NCBI RefSeq assembly: GCF_000003815.2
Contig: NC_049997.1
Span: 12,701,534-12,765,533 of the forward strand
DNA: 64,000 nucleotides
Reading direction: 5' to 3'
From: Branchiostoma floridae
Lineage: Eukaryota > Chordata > Leptocardii > Amphioxiformes > Branchiostomatidae
In this document: positions 23,901 to 55,195 of the stretch, piece by piece
Numbering within the stretch: position 1 is the first letter of the stretch
Layout: each line of letters opens with the position of its first letter
Notes under the pieces: generated by a model
What the model was told of the DNA's origin: nothing
The model's input: only the letters and a program-made list of their open reading frames with translations
Database searches by the model: none
Made by a program: the position numbers and the translations under genes

Positions 23901-26900
23901 TGAAAACAAAATGGCCTTACATGCACAAGAAACAAAAAACAAACGTATAGGAGTACACTATTAGCTATCGCAAAGACGTTGCGTTTTGGTTCATTCTTTG
24001 GACGGCCGACTTTCAACTGATGTTTGCTTTCTCGGCTACTTCTAACGGTAACGTTGAAAAATATCGTGATTCTCTTCTTTCCTTCAACAGCAGGTCCTGC
24101 TACTACCGCTAAGCCTGCTGGTCCTGTCACTACTGAGGAGTCAAAAGTTCCCACCACCACTACTCGCCAACCAGAACGCCCCACCACTACTCGCCAACCA
24201 GAACGCCCCACCACTACTCGCCAACCAGAACGCCCCACCACTACTCGCCAACCAGAACGTCCCTCCACCACACAAGCCGCTGTTTCCATTGGTAAACAGA
24301 TGCAATTTTGTTTTTTTCATTTTTGATAGACTTTTGATGGTCCGGCAAAATGCGTAAATATTAAAATTTGGTGGAGCTAGACGGCAAGGGCTGTAGCCTA
24401 AGGCGGGGTTTACATTCGACCTTTCGGATACGGACGTAACGCCAGCGTCCTAGTCTGTGGAACCAATGGAGGTTAGACATCCATAAAGGTTAGACATCCC
24501 AGTTGCCTGAGTAACTGTTTTTTTTTGCAATGAGATTTTTTGCAGATGTTGTCCCTCATCTCCGTTGTCCGAAGCCACAAGGGGTGCCTCCTCGACTCAG
24601 GAGCCGGCCGCTGTTGGGCGCGATTTAATCAGACTATCAGCGACCCCGTGAATGAGGGAGCCCTCAGAAGCTAGTTTGAAACCTCTCTGCCAGTACAAGA
24701 ACCCAACACACCTATCGACAAGAGTAGGGGTGACCCAGTGTGCTTGGCTAGGCTGAAAACATGACCGTGGCGAGACTACATTGGACAACATAGTGCCATC
24801 CATAAATTCTGATCCTCTGTCTAAGTTCGGTCGCTTCACCGTTCTTCAAAGACGAAATACCTTATATTTGTATTTTTACTTACAGGATGCACGGTTGGAA
24901 CGGGCGAGTCGTATCGTGGAAGGCTAGCTAAGACCGCATCGGGACGCACCTGTCAGCGCTGGGACGCACAGACACCGCATCAACACAGCAGGACCCCAGC
25001 CAACTACCCGAATTTCGGGTTGGAAGAGAATTTCTGCAGGTAGGCTGAACATTTTAGAGTCACCTCTGACTCATGACTTTGTTGCTATATATAGTTTTGG
25101 ACTAATTACGACGTTTTATGATGTTAAAATGAATCTTTTATTGGTTGACATTGCGATATTTCTTCCTTTTCCATAGGAACCCGGATGGAGAGCCGTCGCC
25201 ATGGTGTTACACCACTGACCAATCAGTACGCTGGGAGCTCTGTGAGATCCCAACATGCACTACAACCCCACCAGCGCCCCCAGCGGTAACGACTAGAACT
25301 ACAACACTGGCTCCGGCTGTACCGACTACCAAACCGGAGGGAAATTGTGCTGGTAGGTTTGAAACTTACGATTCCAGTTATTTATAAGGGTAATTACATG
25401 TTTGCAGCTGAAAAAAAAAAACTATGTTGTTTTACCCTCGGGTCTGTGGGCCCCGCCATATAGCTTATGACGTAGGTGGTCGGCCATATTGTTTTCTTAC
25501 ATTTTCCTCGAATTGATCACAGGCTCATTGAAACGTAGATTTCGACAAAAATCCAGAAAAGAGAAGCTTAACAAACATTTCCTGGATCTATCAATCTTTT
25601 AGAAGAGTGTGCAGCTGGAACCGGGGCCTCGTACCGTGGGACAGTCTTCGTGACCGCAACAGGACGCACCTGTCAGCGGTGGGACGCACAGGCACCGCAT
25701 CAACACGACAGGACCCCAACTAACTACCAGGACTCGGGTCTGGAGGAGAACTACTGCAGGTAAAGTAACGTTCTTTATATTAGGCCATAGTATTAGTCCA
25801 GAGGCGTAGATGAAAAATTGTGCAAATTTGTCTAAAAGCACCAAATTTGGCACACATGCAGTTGAGTGTTTGTTACTTATTTACTTGCCCTTTGCCCCGC
25901 AGCCCGTTCGGACAACAAGCCACGGATGATACTCCTCCACTGCACACGTCTCTAGCTCTGGGCCTTTCTTCTCAGGTCGTGCCAGCTGTTACTGGTGTAC
26001 CTCATCTCTTCCTTAGTGTCCCTTCTCAAGCTGTTCTTGGGCCTCCCCCTTTTCGATTGCAATGTGGGTTCCAGGTTAGCGCCTGCTGTGTGATGGTGGC
26101 TTCCTACGTGTGTGCCCTATCCAGGACCATTTCCTTCTGAGGATCTGACTTACGTTTGTTACTGGTAGCAAAACATTTTTATTGTGAAACGACGTACATT
26201 GTAACTAAACAATATCCTGTATATAAGTTTGGTCTACATTATAGTTGGTCGTTTGGTTTTGAGGATGTTGGGGTTCTTAGTTATTCTTGTTTTACAAGGG
26301 GGAAGCTTATTTTAAGAATTGTAACCAGTAACGGTCCAGTTACACTTTTTATACACTATTGTTGTTTTAGGAACCCGGATGGTGAAGCATCCCCATGGTG
26401 CTACACCACTGATCGTTTCGTGCGATGGGAGCATTGTTCTATCCCGGCATGCAACACACCTACCGAGGGTGCCAACAGAGGTCAGTGAATATTAAGCTCC
26501 AAGCAGATGTTAGGAGAGAAGAGCTTAACATTCCTAATGTGTCATAACGTGTCAAAATAATATTCGAAGATTCGGCAGGACTTTTCTGTTGTGATGTACT
26601 ATCAAATTCAAAGCTATACTTCCTGTTCATCAATTCTGGCCGGGACAACACCTCGGCGGTTACATGAATTGCTTTTCCTATCAATCCAATCATTTAAAAT
26701 CATGTTGATAACGACAACCTGACCGTTATGGCCAGCCCTTGAGTTAATAGGCACTAAGATATATGTCATTTCATGCTAACTCTGTATCTAATAATATCAT
26801 ATGGTATCTGATGTCAGATACACATTACTAATTATAGTTGTTGTTAGAATTCAAGTCCATTAGAATTAGAAATTCGTCTTAAGTTTAGATATTGTTGGTA

Positions 26901-33078: not shown

Positions 33079-36000
33079 ATGAGAAAGAAAATGGAAAGTA
33101 TCCTAGGCTATCGACTTTTCCTCATGTGGACTTTGCTTCTGGTGGTGACTCAAGTGCCATGTGCCGGTAAGGAAGTTTTAGTATTTTAGTTCTATTGGCT
33201 AACATTCCTTTTCAACCTATTTGTTTTCTATACAGAGAACATGAATCTAGCATTTACCGGTCCATGTTTGTGATCGCAACCTTGAATTCATTTGAATTTA
33301 TGTTAATACAAGGAAGTCAAAGTTAACTTATATGTATTGAATGCTTTCAAAACAAAACATTGGCTATGATATGATCTGAAATGATAATTTGTGTATGATA
33401 TGTGTTATGTGTGTGTTTGTGTGTTTGTTTGTTTGTGTGTGTGTGTGTGTTTGTGTGTGTGAAAACTTCATACAACTGCTCATCCTTTGCCCGGTACTTT
33501 AGTTGGAATTTTTCTTTTTTTTTGCGACAAACTTGTTTCGTCGAGTTGGGATGATATATAAAATCGAGTATATAAAGATATAAAGACGAGGTCTTATATA
33601 TCAGTATTGGCATGGATACATCACAACAAAAGCTTGTGACTAATAACACTATACGTCTTTTTTAACGAGTGGTCTCTCAAAGACCTTGCCATGAATAATT
33701 TAGTGGCAAAACAGTAATGTTGCTGTAATATAAGGGGCGTCTATATGGCACCTAGCTCTACAGCAAGCTCGGCTTCATCATATCATATCTCATATCTCAT
33801 CATATATCGTATCACGTCATAAGCTCAAAATATCTGGCAAGTGACGAAGCAGACGGTCGAGGCTTGCTTACAGAGATAGGTCTCTCAAACAAGACCCACA
33901 CAAATGCGCTTAAGAAGAAAAACATATTAATGCACCATAAGTATACCAGGAGCATTATTTCTGTGAAAAAAGACAGTTTATTTTGAAACAGTTGCATTGA
34001 ATAAGCATACATGCAGTTAATGGAATCACTTCGACGTCCATATTTCGTATTGAAAAACAACAACAACCGTAAAAACGTAGTCAAGTCTGCTATTATAGAA
34101 TAAGAGTACGTTGTTTGGGCGGAAGAAAGAGCCCTTATGGGTGATGGCCATACCTCCCTTTATATAGTCTTGCCACAATCTTGAATCAATAGGTATTCCT
34201 CAAACATCCTTGAAAATAAGAAGGAAAAGGAGAAATACTAAAGAAATCAAACAGGGAAAGGCGACCACAGAAAGCAACATGGAAAACAAAAGAATAACAC
34301 TTTATGTCAATAATCAAATGATAGCAGGTTCTCATAACTGATAACACCATAATAAATGTCAAATTAATTACATTCAACTTTTAAAAAGGGGGGGGGGCAG
34401 TGTACCATGGGAATATACACAACAGAACATTCTTTCTTAATGATCCTCCAAATCAAATTCAAATAATATTTACCAAGTAATTTCCGAACATCGATTGATG
34501 AAGAAAGCTGAAAATACAACAATCCAACTCAAATTCACCTAACTGACGACCAGAGTCTGAAGAGGTATCCCACCGAACTGCGGTATGTAGGTGGTGTCGC
34601 TGTCTCCTAAATTAAGTTTGTGTTCCCCTTGATTTTATGATAAGATTTAATGATATCATGCAAAAACTTAATTGAACTATGTACCAAAATGAGCAAATAT
34701 GTAGCCTAATAAATGTACTTGTAGAAGTGACACTTGCGAGGTACCCAGGACTGTAGTTGTAGAAATAAAACTTATTAGATAGTTGTAAAAGTGACAACAA
34801 TATGGAAGCCATGAGTGTGGTTACCAACTTTGTTAGTGATACCAGTCTGCCACACTAGTCACTTTTACCACAGCAGTACATGTCTTGAATACAGGAATGA
34901 ATGCTTTGTTGGCTCTGATATCATGTTTTCTACATCTACATTCTTATACCCCCAAATGGCCCCGCATGGGGCATCGCGGGGGGGGGGGGGGGGGGGCAAC
35001 TTAAGCCCCCGGGTTAAGGGGGGGAGGCCCCCTGCCTGGGACGGAAACCCTCAACGTTGGGGGGACTTAAAAACGGGGCAGGGAGGGGTTTCCCCCCCGG
35101 AAAGGGGGGGGGGAAAAAAGAGTTTTTATATGGGGCGGGACGGGCAAAAAAGGGGTAAAATTTATGAACGGGGCCCTTGGGGCCCCCTGGGCGGGGTTAA
35201 AAAAGCCGCCAAGGGCCAAATTAAAGGTATTAATAACCACCTTGGAAAAAAAATTGAGGGGGGTTTTGGCCCCTCAATTCTTGGTAAAAAATTTAAAAAA
35301 CCTTTATGGGGGCCATTTTTGGAAAAGGAGCCTTTTTTTCCCCCCATCCCACAATTTTTGCTGGCTGCCCAGGAAGCCCTCCCAAAAAATTACTTGGTGG
35401 GGCCCAATGGAAAAAGGGAAAATTTGGCCTCCAAAAGGGCTGGAAAATTAAAAACATTTCCGAAGCTATGATCAAAAACCCCCATCTTGNNNNNNNNNNN
35501 NNNNNNNNNNNNNNNNNNNNNNNNNNNNNNNNNNNNNNNNNNNNNNNNNNNNNNNNNNNNNNNNNNNNNNNNNNNNNNNNNNNNNNNNNCTCTATAGCAG
35601 GCTCTCTGGGGTAGCGGGAGCATGGTTTTGTCCCATATATGCAAATAACCAGCATGCATACATTAACATGCTAATAAGTACGTGCAAATTAACATAAGCA
35701 CTTTTGTACATTTTGGTTCACACTGTACACTTCACTCTACTCACTCTGGTTCACTGTCTGGTTCACTCCTATACACTCTGGTTCACTCTCATACACTCTG
35801 GTTCACTCCTATACACTCTGGTTCACTCCTACACACTCTTCACACTGTACACTCTAGCTCACCCTGTACTCTCTGGTTCACTCTATTCAATCTTGTTCAC
35901 TCTAGCACACTCTCATACACTCTGGTTCACTGTCTGGTTCCCTCTCATACACTCTGGTTCACTCTTATACACTCTGGGTCACTCTGTTCACTCTGTACAC

Positions 36001-39000
36001 TTTGGTTCACTCTGTATTCTCTAGCTTCACTCTAGCGCACTCTTATACACTCTGGTACACTCTTATACACTCTAGTTCACTCTGTACACTTTGGTTCACT
36101 CTGTACTCTCCAGCTTCACTCTAGCGCACTCTTATACACTCTGGTACACTCTTATACACTCTAGTTCACTCTGTACACTTTGGTTCACTCTGTACTCTCT
36201 AGCTTCACTCTAGCGCACTCTTATACACTCTGGTACACTCTTATACACTCTAGTTCACTCTGTACACTTTGGTTCACTCTGTACTCTCCAGCTTCACTCT
36301 AGCGCACTCTTATACACTCTGGTACACTCTTATACACTCTAGTTCACTCTGTGCACTTTGGTTCACTCTGTACTCCCTAGCTTCACTCTAGCGCACTCTT
36401 ATACACTCTGGTACACTCTTATACACTCTAGTTCACTCTGTACACTTTGGTTCACTCTGCACTCTCTAGCTTCACTCTAGTGCACTCTTATACACTCTGG
36501 TACACTCTTATACACTCTAGTTCACTCTGTACACTTTGGTTCACTCTGCACTCTCTAGCTTCACTCTAGCGCACTCTTATACACTCTGGTACACTCTTAT
36601 ACACTCTAGTTCACTCTGTACACTTTGGTTCACTCTGTACTCTCTAGCTTCACTCTAGCGCACTCTTATACACTCTGGTACACTCTTATTCACTCTAGTT
36701 CACTCTGTACTCTCTGCTTCACTCTAGCGCACTCTTATACACTCTGGTTCCCTCTTATACACTCTAGTTCACTCTGTACTCTCAGCTTCACTCAATTCAC
36801 TCCAGCGCACTCTTATACACTCTGGTTAACTCTTTACACTCTTATACACTCTGCTTCACTCTAGCGCACTCTTATACACTCTGGTTCACTCTTATACACT
36901 CTAGTTCACTCTGTACTATACCGTATAAAAATCGTCATTATTTCCATATCGTATACCTACATGTAATAACGATAATTTCAGGTACGTCTTATAACAATAT
37001 CTTAGCAAAGTGAATTTGCTGCGTACAATGGAGTATAGCGAGACGATGTCGTATACGTACGGCGATATCGTTTTAAGCGGAAGATACGTACATCGTAAAC
37101 CTATTTTCGCTACTTTAAGGTACGTTTTTAGATACGATATTTTGACACGGAAATGATACCATATCAATTATACCACGGAAAAAAACCGGAAGGACAAAAG
37201 TGGGCCTTATGGACGATTCCTAACGTCCCTTACTAATTCATCTTTATAATTTTCGTGTCAAAATATCGCATTAAGATGCATATCATAAACAAGCCTACAA
37301 ACGTGCACAGTATTGCAATAGGGATACACAGACAAACTGCCTAAATATAAGTTTCTTTACTAAGTTATCAAATTTCACAACCCCTTGACATATGTCAGGG
37401 TACAGATAAATCATTTGCTGTGGAGAACGATGAACAAATGAACTAAACTGAGAACGAAAGCAAAATTATAAGGAGTCTAAAAGCAAAGGGTCTCTAGCCA
37501 TGGTTGTCTTTTTCGTGTTCCTATATGACTAATGATGATGATGATGATGGTATGACTAATCGTTACTTACTGCATTTTTTCTTGATAGTTCCTAAGAAGT
37601 GGCGTGATGACTGGCAATGCGGGCAGGGCTACCCTGCTGAAGACCGGTAACCCTGCTGAATGCGAACCCTGACGGTATTTAACCCATGCTGCTCCCCGGC
37701 AAACTGGTGCGGCAAACTGCGGCCACTGTGACTGTCCGGACTGTGTCGACTACTGGAACACCTGGTACTTACTGCGAACCTGTCAAAGATCGGTTTGTTA
37801 TCAGCAAAGATTAAGACATTGAATGTACATGCCAGAACGATACCTATGGCATCATTTCCGTGCCAAGGTGACGGAACATGGAGCAACCTTACTCCAACAT
37901 GCATGCGTAAGAAGACTTACTAGTTCCTATATGCCAGCAATGTCGATGGTATTGTGGTATGCAAATAGTAAATATAGTCTCAGAAAGAAGCTGCATGACG
38001 TTTCCCTCTTCAATGTGTAATTGAGCACAGATTAAAAGACGTTGTTTTGTGCATGGTCAGAAGACAAATAGTACATCTTCCCACAATAAAAGGTTCTTGA
38101 ACATTTGATCAAGTGGGGCATAACTATGTTAGAGTGAGAAGGGGGTGTACGTACCGTATGACTTGTCACGTTACAGCATACATATTTGTTTCAATGTTGC
38201 TATGATATGAGATATTGCGGGAGATCGTAGCACGCTATCGTTACGATATCGTAAAGTCCCTGTTGAAACATCGTACACGTATTTCCCACCTATTTCACGT
38301 TTAAGGTACCCTTTTCCAAAACGTTATTTTGACACGGATATTGTAAAGCTGTGCAAAGGGGACGTATGGGCATCATATTTAAAAACGCACCTTAAACTAG
38401 CGTAAATATATGGCATCATTTCCGTGTCAAAATATCGTATCTAAAAACGTACCTTAAACTAGCGTAAATACGTCTACGATATACGTAATTTTACGTTTAC
38501 GATATCGTCTCGAACCAAAAATATCGATATACTCAGCAATACGCACGTCGATAAGTTATCGGTATAAGACGTACATTTAACTACCGTTATCAGGTATACG
38601 ATATCGCAATTCAGACGATGTTTTTAAATGGTACCGTTCTGGCATGTACATTCTATGTCTGAATATCGTATCACAAAACGTGCGTTAAAGTAGCGAAAAG
38701 ACGTCTACCACATATGTATATGATAGCGCCTTATAAGCGTCTATCGTAAGCGCCACATCGCAAGCTTAGACGATAGGCATGATAAGACGATACGTCTATC
38801 GTGTCGCGCGAGCTGGCCCACTTGGTTGCAGAGCGGTCACACCCCCGTCCGGACAATGGGAACGACCAGTTAAATGAAGCCTTTCCTGCAAAGTATCATC
38901 ACACCCCCTTCCGGCAATGGGAACGACCAAATACCTCAGCACAACGTGTCAACTTCATTATCATTAGCACAGTTGACGCGTGTTATTAAAGACATGTCAG

Positions 39001-42000: not shown

Positions 42001-45000
42001 GACCAAGAAGACTAAAGGAATCCACTAAGTGATTACGTCTGTTTTTGCTGTTGTAAATCAGTCAACCTCTGTCATTGTGATTCGTAACAGATCAACAGAT
42101 AGAACTTCAAATTTTATCCGCTGCTGCAACATGACAGCAGACAAGTTCAGATGCTTGTTGCTCACAGTCAGCTGTGATGTGTATCTAGCAATGTACATTG
42201 TAAGAGCGAGATGCATAGTTTATGCCAATACACCACTTCAGTATGACTTTAATGGATTATTTGTTTCATTTAAGACCAAAAAATTTACATTTTTGGCATA
42301 ATGTGTCTTGTCGCCAAAACGACTTGAAATTTGGAATGGGGGTGCCTAAGTCATTTATACCCGCTTTATCAAAATGATAGCCATACATACACCACTTCAG
42401 AATGATTTATTATATTTCAGGTATACCACAGGTATGGTCAAATATATTGTATTCGTAATGTTTCTGTTTCTTCTCGGTTACCGGTCTAACATCATTGATC
42501 ATCGCCAGAAATACAAGAGGGCCTATCATGGTGCCCTGAGCTATACCGCACATCATGTTTTCCCAATGTGATAATGCTCCCTGGTAACGTACGCACTGTC
42601 GGCGATCTGAGAGAAAATTGCAGACCCAAGGGATTACAGATGGTCTTGCTCCGAGGCTTATCAGCTTAGTTATAGCGGTTGTATGGCATACTCTATCGAC
42701 CTTGTCTTAGCTACGTCTTGATCCTTGAACCTTATACGTCTTATATTATACTATCTTAGTTGTCATCGCGACATTACCTCTCTATCACATCAGTTCAGAG
42801 CTTTTGTTTAAAAATCTGGTAAATTTAGATGTCTATCGGGTCACTGATGAAAGACATTCACATTCATCTGTGGTGGGTTTGGAAACAAAGTGGCGCGTCG
42901 GTACACCCGACCCCTCCATCTCGGAAGTTAAGCAACGCGCAGTCCGGACAGTGCTTGGATGGGAGACCAACCAAGGACGTCCGGATTGCTGTAGCTTCAT
43001 GAAGCTTTCCACGAAATCGTCTTCCGGGAGGGACGTAAAACGGTGGTCCCGTGCTCGAGGAGGTGCCTCGAACACGTTAAACAGCCTCATTACCCTACAC
43101 ATTGGGTACCTGCCTGTGGCACTGGCTGCAAATACACCCGATATTATTATTTTGCCCTCTTTCTAGCATCCCCTTCTTCTCTTTTTTTAAGGTCCAACAA
43201 AACTCTTCACAATGCCCCATATCATATACACCACCAAATCATTCTATTTCCTAGGTGTGCAGTGCCCCACTCTATCCAACCCTACAAACGGTGCTGTGAG
43301 CTACAGCTCCAGGAACTACGGAGATGCGGCCTCCTACTCGTGTAACACAGGATACAACCTGAATGGCTACTCTACACGGACGTGTCAGTCTTCAGGCTCA
43401 TGGAGTTATAGTGCACCAACTTGTCAAGGTATTTAAAGCAGAACTATAGAACATCAAACACGTTGAACTGCAGTGCATATATTCTGTAGCCTCTGCAGTT
43501 ATAGATCATGTTTTCATATCGTAAGGTAATGAGTACAGATAGAGAAAGATGAGTTTAGAACTTTTTAATTGTAATTTTTGAATTAAAAATCGCTATACCT
43601 GATTTGTAACACTAGCCTTGTTTTTTTCTTTCTGTCGTTCGTTCCTATTTTATCTTGTCCTTCTTTGCTTCCTTCAGTTTCCTTCAGTTTTATTTTCTTC
43701 TTTCTTTCTCTTTCTCTCTTTGTCTTTCATTCTTTCTTTGAATGAAGTCTTATATTATATTCTTCAGCCGTGCAGTGCCCGACACTATCCAACCCTACAA
43801 ACGGCGCTGTGAGCTACAGCTCCAGGAACTACGGAGATGTGGCCTCCTACTCGTGTAACACAGGATACAACCTGAATGGCTACTCTACACGGACGTGTCA
43901 GTCTTCAGGCTCATGGAGTCAAACTGCACCAGCTTGTGCAGGTATTCAAAGTGGGATGTGTTTTAACCTTTAACATAGTGAATTATGCCACTCAAAATAA
44001 AATGCAGCTTTCTTTCTTCCTTTAGAATGATTAGATACATTCTATTCTTTAGCCGTGCAGTGTCCCACAGTATCCAACCCTACAAACGGTGCCGTGAGCT
44101 ACAGCTCCAGGAACTACGGAGATGTGGCCTCCTACACGTGTAACACAGGATACAACCTGAATGGCTACTCTACACGGACGTGTCAGTCTTCAGGCTCATG
44201 GAGTTATAGTGCACCAACTTGTCAAGGTATTCAAAGCAGAACTATAGAACATCGAACACGTTGAACTGCAGCGCATATATTCTGTAGCCTCTGCAGTTAT
44301 AGATCATGTTTTCATATCGTAAGGTAATGAGTACAGATAGAGAAAGATGAGTTTAGAACTTTATAATTGTAATTTTTGAATTAAAAATCGCTATACCTGA
44401 TTTGTAACACAAGCCTTGTTTTTTCTTTCTGTCGTTCGTTCCTATTTTATCTTGTCCTTCTTTGCTTCCTTCAATTCCTTCAGTTGTATTTTCTTCTTTC
44501 TTTCTCTTTCTCTCTTTGTCTTTCATTCTTTCTTTGAATGAAGTCTTATATTATATTCTTCAGCCGTGCAGTGTCCGACACTGTCCAATCCAACAAACGG
44601 CGCTGTGAGCTATATCTCCAGGAACTACGGAGATGTGGCCTCCTACTCGTGCAATACAGGATACAACCTGAATGGCTACTCTACACGGACGTGTCAGTCT
44701 TCAGGCTCATGGAGTTATAGTGCACCAACGTGTGGTGGTAAGTGCAACTATGGAACATGGTATAGGTTATATATAGTGTTGCGAGGCTGTTGGAACTAGA
44801 AGTCGCCCCTAATGCTAAATTTCAAGCCATTATATTCCATATAATGAGGAAAGAACACAAAATCCACGTTTGGTCTGACAATAGGCAAATAAAGACCAGA
44901 ATTGATGATAATAAAGGCAGGTATCCAAAGGTGTAAAAACGACGAGTGCCCATATGTCCGACTCCATCCCATGTACATGTCAAGTTTCATGTCAGGTGGA

Positions 45001-48000
45001 TTTTACATGTAATTTCATATACGGTAAGAGTATAGGAAGCTAAGACTAAAATATAACAAGGCTAGGTTGTACTTACTTGGTAGTCTTTTTCTTGCTCTTT
45101 CTGTTCTTTAGCCATGCAGTGCCCCACACTATCCAACCCTGCAAACGGTGCCGTGAGCTACAGCTCCAGGAACTACGGAGATGTGGCCTCCTACTCGTGT
45201 AACACAGGATACAACCTGAATGGCTACTCTACACGGACGTGTCAGTCTTCAGGCTCATGGAGTCAAACTGCACCAACTTGTGGAGGTATTCAGAATAAGA
45301 TGTGTAATATGAAGTATGTCGAAGTCGAAAAGGAACGTAAATAAATAAGATTTTATGTTTCCTTGTCGTAAGGTCATCTGTACAGTGATGACAGAAAACT
45401 GTGTTTAAGAATTTGTTTTAATCGTTGATATAGTATTTTATGCCACTTAAAATACGCTGCAGCTTTTTTTCTTTCATTAGGTGATAATCAAATATATTCT
45501 ATTGTACAGTCGTGCAGTGTCCCACACTATCCAACCCTACAAACGGTGCTGTGACCTACAGCTCCAGGAACTACGGAGATGTGGCCTCCTACTCGTGTAA
45601 CACAGGATACAACCTGAATGGCTCCTCTACACGGACGTGTCAGTCTTCAGGGTCATGGAGTCAAACTGCACCAACTTGTGGCGGTAAGTGTAACTAATGA
45701 TAATCGAATATGCTAAATAGCAGTGTATTGATGCTTATTTGGCTTCGATATAATGGCAAAGCAACATGAGAAATGAATGTTTAGTCTCAAAATAACCAAA
45801 TAAACTTTAAAATGAGTGGCATTCAAGACTAGTGTTCCAAAGGTGTGTATATGTTTCACTCAATGCCATGTACATGTAACATGCCAGGTTTTAGTTGAGG
45901 TAGGTTATACATGTATCGCTAGTTCAGCCTTATTTGCGAGGTAAATGGCATCCATTGTTTTTTTTTTTAAAATAGGGTATTTAGGAAAACCAATTGGAAG
46001 GACGGTGGTTTCAAATTGTAATATTTTCAAGCAAAGTCTTCTTCGTTTTACAACCTTCTTATAATTCTTCCGTAGACGTTTCGGCGACTATCTGTCGTCT
46101 TCATCAGTACAGAAATTGATGTAATATTTTCGAAATGACACATATAATATAGGGAGAGAACACTGGAATATGACAATGTTTAATTGGTTGATTTACTTTT
46201 TCTTTCTTTCTATTCTATATAGACGTGCAATGCCCGGCTCTATCCCACCCTACAAACGGTGCCGTGAGCTACAGCTCCAGGAACTACGGAGATGTGGCCT
46301 CCTACTCGTGTAACACAGGATACAACCTGAATGGCGCCTCTACACGGACGTGTGAGTCTTCAGGCTCATGGAGTAATAGTGCACCAACTTGTGGTGGTAA
46401 GTGTAACTGATGAAAATCGAATATGTTAAATAGCAGTGCATTGATGCTGGAAACTAGACATCAACACACATGTCAAATTTCAAGTCATTTTGCTTCGATA
46501 TAATAACGAAGAAAGATGAGAAATGCATGTTTGGTCTGACAATAGACAAAAATGGTAGAATTTCTTTTTCTTGCTCTTTCTGTTCTCTAGTCGTGCAGTG
46601 CGCCACATTGTCCAACCCTACAAACGGCGCTGTGAGCTACAGTTCCAGGAACTACGGAGATGTGGCCTCCTACTCGTGTAACACAGGATACAACCTGAAT
46701 GGCTACTCTACACGGACGTGTCAGTCTTCAGGCTCGTGGAGTTATAGTGCACCAACTTGTGATGGTAAGTGTAACTGATGAAAATCGAATATGTTAAATA
46801 GTAGTGCATTGATGCTGGAAACTAGACATCAACACACATGTCAAATTTCAAGTCATTTGGCTTCGATATAATCCGTGCAGTGCCCGACACTATCCAACCC
46901 TACAAACGGTGCCGTGAGCTACAGCTCCAGGAACTACGGAGATGTGGCCTCCTACTCGTGTAACACAGGATACAACCTGAATGGCTACTCTACACGGACG
47001 TGTCAGTCTTCAGGCTCATGGAGTTATAGTGCACCAACGTGTGGTGGTAAGTGCACGTTACTATGGAACATAGTATAGGTTATATATAGTATTGCGTGGC
47101 TGTTGGAACTAGAAGTCGCCCCATACAATGAGGAAAGAACACAAAATCCACGTTTGGTCTGACAATAGCCAAATAAACATCAGAATTAATGATAATAAAG
47201 GCGGGTATCAAAAGGTGTAAAAACGACGAGTGTCCATATGTCCGACTCCATCCCATGTACATGTCATGTTTCATGTCAGGTGGATTTTACATGTAATTTC
47301 ATATACGGTAAGAGTATAGGAAGCTAAGACTAAAATATAACAAGGTTGTACTTACTTGGTAGACTTTCTTTTTCTTGCTCTTTCTGTTCTTTAGCCGTGC
47401 AGTGCCCCACACTATCCAACCCTACAAACGGTGCCGTGAGCTACAGCTCCAGGAACTACGGAGATGTGGCCTCCTACTCGTGTAACACAGGATACAACCT
47501 GAATGGCTACTCTACACGGACGTGTCAGTCTTCAGGCTCATGGAGTCAAACTGCACCAACTTGTGGAGGTATTCAGAATAAGATGTGTAATATGAAATAT
47601 GTCGAAGTCGAAAAGGAACGTAAATAAATAAGATTTTATGTTTCCTTGTCGTAAGGTCATCTGTACAGTGATGACAGAAAACTGAGTTTAAGAATTTGTT
47701 TTAATCGTTGATATAGTAATTTATGCCACTTAAAATACGCTGCAACTTTGTTTCTTTCATTAGGCGATAATCAAATATATTCTATTGTACAGTCGTGCAG
47801 TGTCCCACACTATCCAACCCTACAAATGGTGCTGTGAGCTACAGTTCCAGGAACTACGGAGATGTGGCCTCCTACTCGTGTAACACAGGATACAACCTGA
47901 ATGGCTACTCTACACGGACGTGTCAGTCTTCAGGGTCATGGAGTCAAACTGCACCAACTTGTGGCGGTAAGTGTAACTAATGATAATCGAATATGCTAAA

Positions 48001-51000
48001 TAGCAGTGTATTGATGCTTATTTGGCTTCGATATAGTGGCAAAGGAACATGAGAAATGCATGTTTAGTCTCAAAATAACCAAATAAACTTTAAAATGAGT
48101 GGCATTCAAGACTAGTATTCCAAAGGTGTGTATATGTCTGACTCAATGCCATGTACATTCCAGGTTTTAGTTGAGGTAGGTTTTACATGTATCGCAAGTT
48201 CAGACACAGCCTTATTTTCGAGGTAAATGGTATCCATTGTTTTTAAAAAATAGGGTATTTAGGAAAACCAATTCGAAGGACGGTGGTTTCAAATTGTAAT
48301 ATTTTCAAGCAAAGTCTTCTTCGTTTCACAACCTTCTTATAATTCTTCCGTGGACGTTTCGGCGACTATCTGTCGTCTTCATCAGTACAGAAATTGATGT
48401 AATATTTTCGAAATGACACATATAATATAGGGAGAGAACACTGGAATATGACAATGTTTAATTGGTTGATTTTCTTTTTCTTTCTTTCTATTCTATATAG
48501 ACGTGCAATGCCCGACTCTATCCAACCCTACAAACGGTGCCGTGAGCTACAGCTCCAGGAACTACGGAGATGTGGCCTCCTACTCGTGTAACACAGGATA
48601 CAACCTGAATGGCTACTCTACACGGACGTGTCAGTCTTCAGGCTCATGGAGTAACAGTGCACCAACTTGTGGTGGTAAGTGTAACTGATGAAAATCGAAT
48701 ATGTTAAATAGTAGTGCATTGATGCTGGAAACTAGACATGTCAAATTTCAAGTCATTTGGCTTCGATATAATAACGAAGAAAGATGAGAAATGCATGTTT
48801 GGTCTGACAATAGACAAAAATGGTAGAATTTCTTTTTCTTGCTCTTTCTGTTCTCTAGTCGTGCAGTGCGCCACATTGTCCAACCCTACAAACGGCGCTG
48901 TGAGCTACAGCTCCAGGAACTACGGAGATGTGGCCTCCTACTCGTGTAACACAGGATACAGCCTGAATGGCTACTCTACACGGACGTGTCAGTCTTCAGG
49001 CTCATGGAGTAACAGCGCACCAACTTGTGGAGGTATTCAGAGTGGGATGTGGAATATAAAACACAATAGCTATATAAAACATTTTAGCTGCTGCAGTTAG
49101 ACTTTATTTTTCCATGTCGTAAGGTAATCCATAAATTGGAGACAGAACATGAGTCCAAAAATTTGTTTTAATCGTCTACATAATGATTTATGTATCTCAA
49201 AATACGTTATAGATTTATTTCTTTCTTTAGCATGATTAAACACATTCTTCTCTACTCTACAGTCGTGCAGTGCCCGACACTATCCAATCCTACAAACGGC
49301 GCTGTGAGCTACAGCTCCAGGAACTACGGAGATGTGGCCTCCTACTCGTGTAACACAGGATACAACCTGATTGGTGACTCTACACGGACGTGTCAGTCTT
49401 CAGGCTCATGGAGTTATAGTGCACCAACTTGTGGTGGTAAGCGGCACTTGATCTACATCAAACAGGTTCAATAGCAGCGTATCCCTGTCGTACATAGCCT
49501 TCTTTCCACAAGCTTAAGTTCCAAATAAGTTGACTTCTATATACTAGCAGAGGAACAAGAGATAACTACGTTTGGTGAGAGGTAACAGCCAGATAAACAT
49601 TGAAATTAATCATCAAAAATAGATAATTTCAATAGAAAATTTCCCAATGCACGTTTGCCCAACAAAATCTCGTACGAAGTTTTATCCTAGGTAACTTAAA
49701 GGTGCTATACGGAGTTTTTTGGTCCAAAAATTGAAAATATTCTCAAGAACAAAACATTCATGTGAATGACATATACAGACACTCTTTTAACTTAATTGTA
49801 TCATTATTGCGTATTTCCAGCGTCTGTGAACTCTACAAAAACAAGATATACAAGGTTCACTGTATTAGAATTACCATCACAGTAGACCCTCATGGTGTAA
49901 ACAACAGCAGATTATACAGTGGGTAGGTCCTCTAGGGTGGGCTAATTAGCTAGCCATACATCGTGCTGGCCAGCTAATAATAGATAACAACAGATCAGAA
50001 GCTCTCATTTCTTGTAAATACTCATATCATTTCCCATAAGCTTAGAATGGAATTACGAATGTAGTCTATTTTGTATGTAAGACATTAACTAAGTGGGATT
50101 ATTTCCCAATCAAAACTGCAAGAACTCTGGTATTGATGTGACTTGGTTTTCATTGATTCAAACATTCAATATGACAGTCTAGCAGCCAACTGGATGTACA
50201 CGTAGTTAACTAAATTGCACTGTTCAACGAAGTAATATAACGGACTGAAACACTAACAGACGTCTAAGATAAAGGTTTACAAAAGCTGCAGTGAAAGGAC
50301 AATAGACACCCCACTAAGTCACCAGGCTAGGTTGAGCCATCTGTGGCTTGTATTGTTGATAAGATCACCTTTTTAAAAACATGTTTGTTTTGATACTGTA
50401 ACATCACTGAATATTGGTATGCAATGTTATAGGGTTGATTTGACTTACTATGAAAAGAAAAGAAAAGGTAGGATAATTTTCTTTTTGTATTGCCCTAAAA
50501 CTCCGTAGAGCACCTTTATACATACCAAGACATACATGTAAGGAGGGAAATATAACGATAATATAAGAATAATATATTGATACTTCATTCAACTAAAGCG
50601 TTGTATCTATATCTATACTTAACAGCATTCATTCATTGCTTGTCGTTATTGTTTTCCTTAGGGCTTTAATTTGTTTTTACGATATTTCCTCAATTTCTTT
50701 TTCTTTCCATTTGCATGCCTGTCTTTTATCCTCACTTAATTGTAAGTTTCTTGTCTCTTTTTTTGTTATGTCTCTTAGCCTTTACTTATTGCCATGTAAA
50801 GCTGTATTGTGCCTCTTATCGTATCACAAAGGTTGCGTCTGTCCAAAAGTTATCTAAATTTTCTATTCTTTAGTCGTGCAGTGTCCCGCACTATCCAACC
50901 CTACAAACGGCGCTGTGAGCTACAGCTCCAGGAACTACGGAGAGGTGGCCTCCTACTCGTGCAATACAGGATACAACCTGGCTGGCTCCTCTACACGGAC

Positions 51001-54000
51001 GTGTCAGTCTTCAGGGTCATGGAGTTATAGTGCACCAAGTTGTCGAGGTATTCAAAGTGGAAGTATAGAAAATGAAACTAGTTGAATGACAGTGTTTTCT
51101 TTCTTTCTTTCTTTGTCTTTCTTTCTTTTAATTGTTAAAAACATTATGTTTTTCAGTGGTGCAGTGTCCATTTCCGAACAACCCTACAAATGGCGCTGTA
51201 AGCTATATCTCCAGGAATTACGGAGAGGTGGCCACCTACTCGTGTAACGCAGGATACAACTTGGCAGGCTCCTCTACACAAACGTGTCAGTCTTCAGGGT
51301 CATGGAGTCCAAGTGCTCCAACTTGTGATCGTAAGTGAAACTTTGGAACATGAAACAGTTTCAATGTCAGTGTACGGCTCTTGTTATTATGCAGTATTTT
51401 TATGACGATATTCGTCATTCTGCATTCTTAGCAGAAGGTAATGAACATAGTAAATAAAGATAGGAAAGTTTTGAAACAGTTTTGTCTTTTCACGTTTTCT
51501 TTCAGTTGTTGGATTTCTTTTCTTATTTAATATTTCTTCATGTATAAATAGCATAGTGACTGTGTCACGTTCAATCTGCCTACAGTTGGACAGTGCCCCA
51601 TGCTGACAGCTCCTACAAACGGAGTTGTCAGCGGTTCCAACTTCTACGGGGGCATGCTCACATTCACCTGCAATGTAGGATACAACCTGGTCGGTTCCTC
51701 TACACTTTCCTGTCAGTCGAGCCTAACCTGGAGTGGAAGTTCACCAACATGTGCAAGTACGATGTTCAGAAACAAAATAAATAAGATACGTTCAGGCATC
51801 TAGATGAACATAGAATATTCTACAGATAAGGGAAGGCTTGTGCTTAGCTATGAATTTCGGCAGTGATATGAAATATATGATTTTTTTTGCTGATTCTAAC
51901 AAAAACTACCACAACCGTAACTTATCGCACTTTAACGGAAGGTCTTTGTCTCTTTATATGTAACTTTGAACATTAGACCGAAATGACATTTTTAAACATG
52001 TAATTACTCTTTGTACTAGTTGTGCAGTGCTCACTGCTGACAACCCCTGACAACGGTGGAATGAATGGAGGCAATAACTACCAAGACGTAGTGACGTTCA
52101 CCTGCAACCTTGGATATGAGATCGTGGGGAGTTCAAGTGTAACCTGCCAAGCTGACGCTACATGGAGTGCTAACGTCCCAACCTGCACACGTATGCGAAA
52201 AAAAAAATTCTGTCTACTTAAACAATGAACTTTAAATGGCAAGGATGATGATTAGCCACATATTTGGAACGCAGACGGCAATAACAAAAATGACAGTTGA
52301 TTAAATGAGATGTCATTTTAAAAGTAGTCCCAAGCTGCACTGTATGACACAGAATAGAGCTACTGTCTGTATTGACAGACCTTGATGTTTTGGAGAATAA
52401 TCTAGTATACCAATAGAAGGATATTCCATTAGTTCAGCCTCATGTTTTACTTGTGCCATGCATCAGGCGTGCAGTGCCCAGCGTTGCAGTCTCCTACAAA
52501 TGGTGGCTCGAGTGGCAGCAACTACTACCAGGACGTGATGAGCTTCACCTGTGACTCGGGTTACGAACTTGATGGCTCGGCAACCATAACATGCCAGGCA
52601 GACCGCACGTGGACTGACAGCGCTCCGAGTTGTCCCCGTAAGAATCAATTCTATGTCCAGCCTTGTTCAAAATAGTTGAAAAATCTTTACTTTCTTGGAA
52701 TTGATCTATTCAGTTAGCTAGAAATAGATCGTTTTATAAGTCTAGTATTGCTAGTAGTAGACTGGTTTATTAAGAAAGCAATACGCATAATAACAGTCCT
52801 AGCCTAAGAGGCTGAATTGCGAGGAGATTATAATCGTGTTCTATTCCAAAGTACAACTATTAACAAACTTTGTGAGCGGCGTTAAGACAATGGATCAATG
52901 ATAAGATCATAACAATAGTTTCTAATTAAAATACAACTTCGAAGTATTACGGATTTGTTGTGTTCAAAGGTCTGTTCACATGCTTAGACTTTATATAGAC
53001 TTTGAAAACTTCAACAAGACAAATTTGTAACAATGAGTTCGTAAGTCACCATGAGGACACAATTAATCTACATCAATGCTGCATTAGGCTAGTACATCAC
53101 AATATATCGTGGTTCGTAATAGTCAAGCAATACCAATTACCAGCCATCATTTCTATAGTCCCCCAGACTTATGTTCTATGAGGGTGATACAAGCTTAGTC
53201 ATGTTTGTTACCACATCCTTACCGATGCAATGTTGCCTACCAGTAAAATATAGGTCAGTATAGCCATGAGGAAGATACCAAATGGAATTATAGAGAGTAT
53301 TTGGTGTTGGTTGTAATAAAAGAACTATACTGTGAAGTTATCCGTCCAGCTATGCACTTTCAAGCATGCCTTATTTCAATTTTTAGGCGTACAGTGTCCA
53401 CTGCTAGCAGCTCCTGATAATGGTGATATGTCTGGCGAGAATTACTACCAGGACGAGTTGACGTTCTGGTGTGATCTTGGATACGAGCTTGTTGGACCTT
53501 CCAGCATGACCTGCCAAGCTGACAGAACATGGAGTGATAACGTCCCAACCTGCGCACGTATGAAACTTAAATTGTGTCTACTGAAACAGATGGAACTTCA
53601 GTGGCTTCAGAGGATTATGATTACTTCATAGGATTATGATTAGCTACATATTTAGAAAGAAACAAACCAAAACTCTACTTACACTCTATGATGCAGGAGA
53701 TAACTATGATTTGTAATGACCAGGATATTTCTGAAAGTAATCAAATTATCGCAAAAGTTGAAGGATATTCCACTATTTCATATCCATTTGATTTCTGGTA
53801 CCAGGCGTGCAGTGCCAAGCGTTGCAGTCTCCTACAAATGGTGGCTCGAGTGGCAGCAACTACTACCAGGACGTGATGAGCTTCACCTGTGACTCGGGTT
53901 ACGAACTTGATGGCTCGGCAACCATAACATGCCAGGCAGACCGCACGTGGACTGACAGCGCTCCGAGTTGTCCGCGTAAGAATCGATTTTATTTCAAGTC

Positions 54001-55195
54001 TCGTTGAAACTTGTGAAAAGATTTTTTTTAATTCATGCTATCTATTTATGTATCTTTATCAGGTTGGTAAATTACTAGATGTCGTGTTTTTTTGTAGACA
54101 AGCAGCATTAATTGCCAGCCAACTTTTCCGTAGTCCCTCTTTTATCTTCCATGAGGGAGATATATGCATGTTTGAGGCTTTGTTATCACCGTAACGTCTT
54201 CTTGAGACACAGAAGCTTCCTTGTGTCCAAAGGACCACAATGTTTTGTTTTAAATCCAGCGATTCACTTTCAAACATATCGTACTTCATCTTTCAGCCAT
54301 ACAGTGCCCACTGCTAGCAGCTCCTGACAATGGTGAACAGTCTGGCGAGAATTACTACCAGGACGTGATGACGTTCTGGTGTGATCCTGGATACGAGCTG
54401 GTTGGACTTCCCAGCTTGACCTGCCAAGCAGACAGAACATGGACTGGGAACGTCCCAACATGCACACGTAAGACAGAAGTGTTCTGTCTAAAATAATCCG
54501 ATACAGATAACTAGATAGTTACGTCAATGATGACAATATTTTCATGTTGAATTAATTTTCCCCTGTGAAAGTCGATACTGTTTATCAGGTACACATGTTG
54601 TAAATATAACCATGTTGAATGTGGTGCAATAGAACTCTTGACTGTATGAGAGTCTCTTAAAAGGCATATAATGCACGGGAAATGTAGATAACAGCAATGG
54701 AAAAAGTATGTCGGTATATTTGTATAGTCTGATTACAACCTCTTTCCAAGATACTGTTTTGTCACGTCTAAAGCTTTTAATGATATGTATCCCAGGTGTG
54801 CAGTGTCCAGTGTTGTCGTCTCCTGTAAATGGCATTTCCAGTGGCTCCAACTTCTACCAGGACGTGGTGACGTCCACATGTGACCGAGGTTATGATCTGA
54901 TCGGAGATTCCAGTTCTACTTGTCAGGCAGACCGAACATGGAGCAGTAACGCCCCATCATGTAACGGTAGGATACAATAAATATAGAAAAATCCAGTTTT
55001 ACAAATTTAACGTTAGTTTAGTTGATAAGATGACTCCAGAAGGATTTCTGTTAGAATGGTTGTAATTCAACACTTCTGATTGTTATTTTTTATCCCTTTG
55101 TGTGAAACATGCAATCAGTCTGAAATTTCTTATGGGAATCTGATGTTCTTGTTTTTCACAGCTATTCTTTCTATCTCTCTCTCTGTCTCTCTCTG

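Follow-up and report, generated by a model that had tools for sequence, protein, structure and literature searches.

A gene with tandem sushi exons in the window, the 64,000-nucleotide stretch of DNA analysed here (C19:12701534-12765533), contains one exon, S9 (46873..47046, + strand), that encodes an intact sushi domain and has no 3' splice site. As assembled, no AG acceptor can bring the whole of S9 into the message, and the acceptor defect is located in the seam left by tandem duplication of a five-exon sushi block. A real silent exon and an assembly error stand at about even odds; the best explanation, to which we give just short of an even chance from sequence comparison, is a real duplication with template switching, in which S9 would be skipped and carried silently.

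Twenty-three sushi exons lie on the + strand at 43255-54966, from S1 (43255-43428) to S23 (54796-54966), and are followed downstream by ten EGF-type exons and two stretches with fibronectin III matches. Exon length is 174 nt in S1-S16 and 171 nt in S17-S23, and all 23 exons are phase 1-1 with a GT donor. As the first-pass annotation of this DNA had stated, S9 is the one exon without an AG: the dinucleotide is found at -2/-1 in 22/22 of the other sushi exons, and S9, directly preceded by CTTCGATATAAT, has AT at 46871-46872 where a functional U2-type internal exon has AG. The exon itself matches Pfam PF00084 (sushi, CCP, or SCR domain) at 52.2 bits, against a cut-off of 20.7, over profile positions 1-56 of 56, and has a GT donor (GGTG/gtaagtgc) and a frame-neutral length of 174 nt. 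A second local duplication was observed at 43255-44737, where S1-I1-S2 matches S3-I3-S4 (97.3% between introns 1 and 3), with its edges within exons and every acceptor retained.

No pyrimidine tract precedes S9. Scored with a small acceptor weight matrix built from the other 22 sites, S9 reached -13.6, where those sites ranged in leave-one-out scoring from -8.7 to 22.0; without the AG columns S9 scored -11.4, compared with a median of 10.1 and a lowest value of -12.6 for the other sushi exons, one normal exon being equally poor. Because S17, a normal exon from the more diverged group S17-S23, is likewise below zero, it is the absent AG and not the score that bears the argument. Five AGs are present in intron 8 (46768, 46800, 46803, 46824, and 46851), four of which had been tested earlier, and with all five checked none (0/5) is in frame. 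A TAA in the S9 reading frame (46869..46871, +), read from the sequence and visible as a stop in the translations, means that any acceptor 5' of it, near or far, stops before S9 is read in frame. A U12-type branch motif was sought in intron 8 and none was found. Three in-frame AGs lie inside S9 (46940, 46967, and 47012), each costing at least 23 residues including the first cysteine; use of the first (46940..46941, +) would lose 23.

A profile of sushi exons was scanned against C19:12681534-12881000 and the stretches L011, L012, and L014, and identified 81 exons, one of them truncated by the end of its stretch (L012:7880). An AG stands at the aligned place in 79 of the 81, and the exon at C19:12784929 has TTACAG with its AG six bases further in, in frame, leaving S9 as the sole exon without a usable AG. 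The word ATATA(A/G)T, at which intron 8 ends, continues into intron sequence in 7/7 other related introns (window introns 4, 6, 7, 11, and 12, and L009 at 4765 and 5504), one further match, in L014, having been left out by eye as unrelated. It is highly improbable that a non-AG acceptor (AT at 46867 or 46871, CG at 46874) or an internal AG brings S9 into use as a full or shortened domain: open, in-frame options of these kinds do exist, and TG acceptors, which are also non-AG, have been reported in 36 human genes (PMC2374985), but the options that give a full-length S9 are AT or CG and not TG, they come without a pyrimidine tract, the internal AGs lose the first cysteine, and all other 80 exons scanned have a usable AG.

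Transcripts might instead take an out-of-frame cryptic AG or retain intron 8 and be cut short, so that the allele would lower expression rather than undergo quiet skipping. The five out-of-frame AGs fit this outcome, as does retention of intron 8, which also runs into stops; we regard it as very unlikely all the same, the best-scoring cryptic AG (46800, score 1.9) leaving a 37-nt intron and the next (46824) scoring -1.9. Skipping of S9 would be frame-neutral, as had been claimed along with the intactness and phase of the exon: the S8-S10 join is open with the frame kept, and S10 (47395..47568, +) would be the probable partner of S8. The intact frame of S9 was considered as a sign of use and rejected, since a simulated unused copy was still open in 51% of runs; an unused S9 would thus be open with a probability of about 0.51 at block divergence, and an intact frame does not speak for its use.

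The duplication pairs block 1, S4-S8 with introns 4-7 (44564..46764, +), with block 2, S9-S13 with introns 9-12 (46873..49032, +). Introns 4-7 and introns 9-12 align with 1239 matches, 37 mismatches, and 8 gaps (2.9% difference) and the exons of the two blocks with 30 mismatches in 870, and S9 shows the homology to neighbouring exons expected of a copy from tandem exon duplication. Between the blocks, pN was 0.021 and pS 0.079, which suggests that the array is under constraint, with the signal blurred by exchange among copies.

Intron 8 (46765..46872, +) is 108 nt long, has a GT donor and no acceptor, and corresponds to the first 108 nt of a 194-nt intron type. Against intron 7 it shows 106 matches and 2 mismatches, after which the final 86 nt are missing, and it aligns to intron 12 at 98/98 positions with one 10-nt gap. 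Introns 7 and 12 extend 86 nt more to the acceptor, these 86 nt being identical in both; in intron 7 the acceptor-bearing stretch that is absent from intron 8 lies at 46505..46590 (+). These alignments bear out the earlier description of the sequence upstream of S9 as the intron after sushi 7 with about 90 bp, acceptor included, removed. The resulting joint, ATAAT/CCGTG (46872..46873, +), is blunt, has no microhomology with the compared copies, and coincides with the first base of S9. A DNA search of the own genome, with 40 of 49 candidates scored, returned no other full-length match that would be a second instance of the joint.

In alignment, intron 3 does not match intron 8 and intron 8 does not match intron 13, so the blocks end within exons. 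S8 and S13 differ at 1/92 of their first positions and 7/82 of their last, and S9 and S4 at 10 of the first 92 and 0 of the last 82; these half-exon differences place the joint inside a seam that runs from the middle of S8 through intron 8 to the middle of S9. The first-pass annotation had set the joint exactly at the boundary of a five-exon block, which is right in that it falls in the seam of a five-exon duplication and too precise in that the homology of the blocks begins within S9 and stops within S8. A simple 86-nt deletion in a copy of intron 7/12 before an S8/S13-type exon was rejected as the whole story because S9 starts with CCGTG and has 8 differences from S8 in its first 92 positions.

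The search of the own genome (513,431,437 bases in 431 contigs) located the window and near copies of it. A near copy at C19:12832131-12862284, 88.5 kb downstream, can be aligned to the gene in the window and to the flank downstream of it; among the matches listed, five pieces of at least 2 kb are 94.9 to 98.1% identical, shorter pieces go down to 81.9%, and none of at least 150 nt lies upstream of C19:12743640. In this copy, the exon at L009:5230-5403 equals S7 in its first half (0/92 differ) and S8 in its second (0/82 differ), and the intron after it matches intron 8 at 107/108 positions and then continues, complete, to CTCTAG. The exon after that is identical to S8 over its first half (0/92 differ) and nearly so to S13 over its second (1/82 differs). 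S8 (46591..46764, +) is accordingly a hybrid, its first half as at L009:5598 (0/92 differ) and its second as at L009:5322 (0/82 differ). The second half of S8 together with intron 8 is 189/190 identical to the gene 88.5 kb downstream, versus 182/190 for exon 7 and intron 7. By halves, S9 is nearest to S10 (1/92 differs) and S4 (0/82 differ), and as a whole to L011:4736-4909 (5/174 differ, with 6 each for S10 and S12); the first half of S4 was possibly converted itself, and S9 is therefore not necessarily the recombinant.

Exons of hybrid make-up are common in this array, as is exchange between copies. A third copy of the gene lies about 36-40 kb downstream, and about 7 kb near the 3' end are 96-98% alike among all three copies, other parts being nearer 85%; such uneven similarity can be taken as a sign of exchange, as after gene conversion. 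The 88.5-kb copy may be a genuine neighbouring gene, or it may be the other haplotype in the wrong place. The three tandem copies of the sushi/EGF gene span C19:12733008-12863845 (window 31475 onward; L009, L010, and L015-L024). In the sister gene an 894-N gap (L009:3539-4432) stands where an S4-type exon and most of its intron are expected.

Under duplication with template switching, ectopic recombination or template switching among the near-identical sushi exons of the gene and its neighbours would have produced the duplication. The copying end would have passed from an S8-type exon into an exon and intron of the preceding type, for which the gene 88.5 kb downstream is the best source found, run 108 nt into the intron (a templated piece of up to 190 bp), and then joined, without microhomology, a further sushi exon at its first base, leaving out the 86 nt with the pyrimidine tract and the AG. 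Splicing would then most likely run from S8 to S10 with S9 as a silent passenger, as the shared phase 1-1 of all exons would allow; splicing to a cryptic AG would mean a frameshift or half a domain. The 189/190 likeness of the left seam piece to the downstream gene fits a duplication in which an insert was templated and the second joint was blunt, and both features have been reported at replication-based rearrangement junctions (PMC5120786). As at the iterative template-switching junctions described there, a nearby piece appears to be copied at the junction and one joint is blunt; unlike them, human joints that were sequenced across, the S9 joint is inferred from one assembly, and its source may equally be an allele. 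Against this explanation, a random break would rarely strike the first base of an exon and template switching does not explain that position, nor would homology, the AG being shared by the other copies as well.

The earlier proposal that S9 was silent on arrival is unproven, as the 86 nt could have gone missing either during the duplication or at some later time. That the joint is a real allele in which one duplication, with the sister gene 88.5 kb away as template, cut an intact domain exon from splicing at birth through a blunt joint at its first base and has held it in reserve is, in our judgment, unlikely; if true, a later exchange with any of the 22 neighbours that brought an acceptor would switch S9 on in frame.

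Somewhat short of an even chance is given to the joint being an artefact of assembly, in which a false join or haplotype switch arose when two divergent haplotypes or near-identical neighbour genes were merged, with S9 having a normal acceptor in the animal or S8-I8-S9 not being present in this form. The genome resembles the B. floridae assembly of PMC7269912, in which Sanger reads from one diploid animal with two divergent haplotypes were merged by HaploMerger2 into 489 Mb of contigs and 19 chromosomal scaffolds, and such assemblies are prone to false joints between haplotypes. Misassemblies have been reported at another locus of an earlier B. floridae assembly (PMC2632668), and the 2.9% intron difference between the blocks comes close to the SNP rate reported for another lancelet, 4.39% (PMC4284660). 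The noisy stretch before the gap at 35 kb of the window, the left seam piece that looks taken from the copy 88.5 kb away, and the placement of a blunt joint on the first exon base point the same way. On the other side, both flanks of the 46872/46873 joint are clean, with no N, noise, or shared repeat where unlike sequences meet, and similar local duplications elsewhere in the array keep normal acceptors. Nor do their flanks support the blocks being plain alleles in tandem, introns 8 and 13 being unlike, though they may form a mixed chimera. The reservation about the assembly made in the first-pass annotation was thus well founded as regards the merged-haplotype type of assembly and the noise before the 35-kb gap, while the plain repeat collapse it envisaged is disfavoured and was rejected here, the joined ends having no shared repeat.

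False duplications and misjoins in heterozygous assemblies (PMC9516828, PMC4284660) resemble this locus in the roughly allelic divergence of the copies and the merged haplotypes, and differ from it in that here the flanks of the two blocks are not allele-like and the joint is free of gap or noise. Obscurin-type tandem exon duplications (PMC9013439) likewise show homologous exon runs grown by repeated local duplication, with an unannotated exon copy among them; in contrast to those, the S9 copy is intact, only its acceptor is missing, and it lies inside the seam of a duplicated block. Titles and abstract openings of the listed papers on duplicated sushi exons in lancelets, on splice sites and breakpoints in tandem exon duplication, and on acceptor loss in duplicated exons showed no such case, and one may still be in print. 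If real, S9 would be a clean natural case of the growth of domain-repeat arrays, in which exchange within near-identical exons preserves splice sites and an intronic break can result in an exon that the DNA carries and the protein lacks, so that exon counts overstate domains. If an artefact, it would be a warning that merged assemblies of very polymorphic animals can yield such 'silent exons'.

A profile search of the window for decayed sushi remnants gave, besides the 23 exons, one weak match only, to the last third of a sushi exon at 37854-37902, about 5.3 kb 5' of S1. About 500 bases of homopolymer-rich noise at 34980-35489 run directly up to a 100-N gap and look by eye like the untrimmed, low-quality end of a capillary read. 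Rfam returned nothing at gathering scores for the window, 42890-43010 included, a segment that looks by eye like 5S rRNA and may be a short 5S-derived repeat. Two segments, 25133-25384 and 26141-26485, match the C-terminal part of a kringle domain, and threonine/proline-rich repeats lie near them at 24154-24268.
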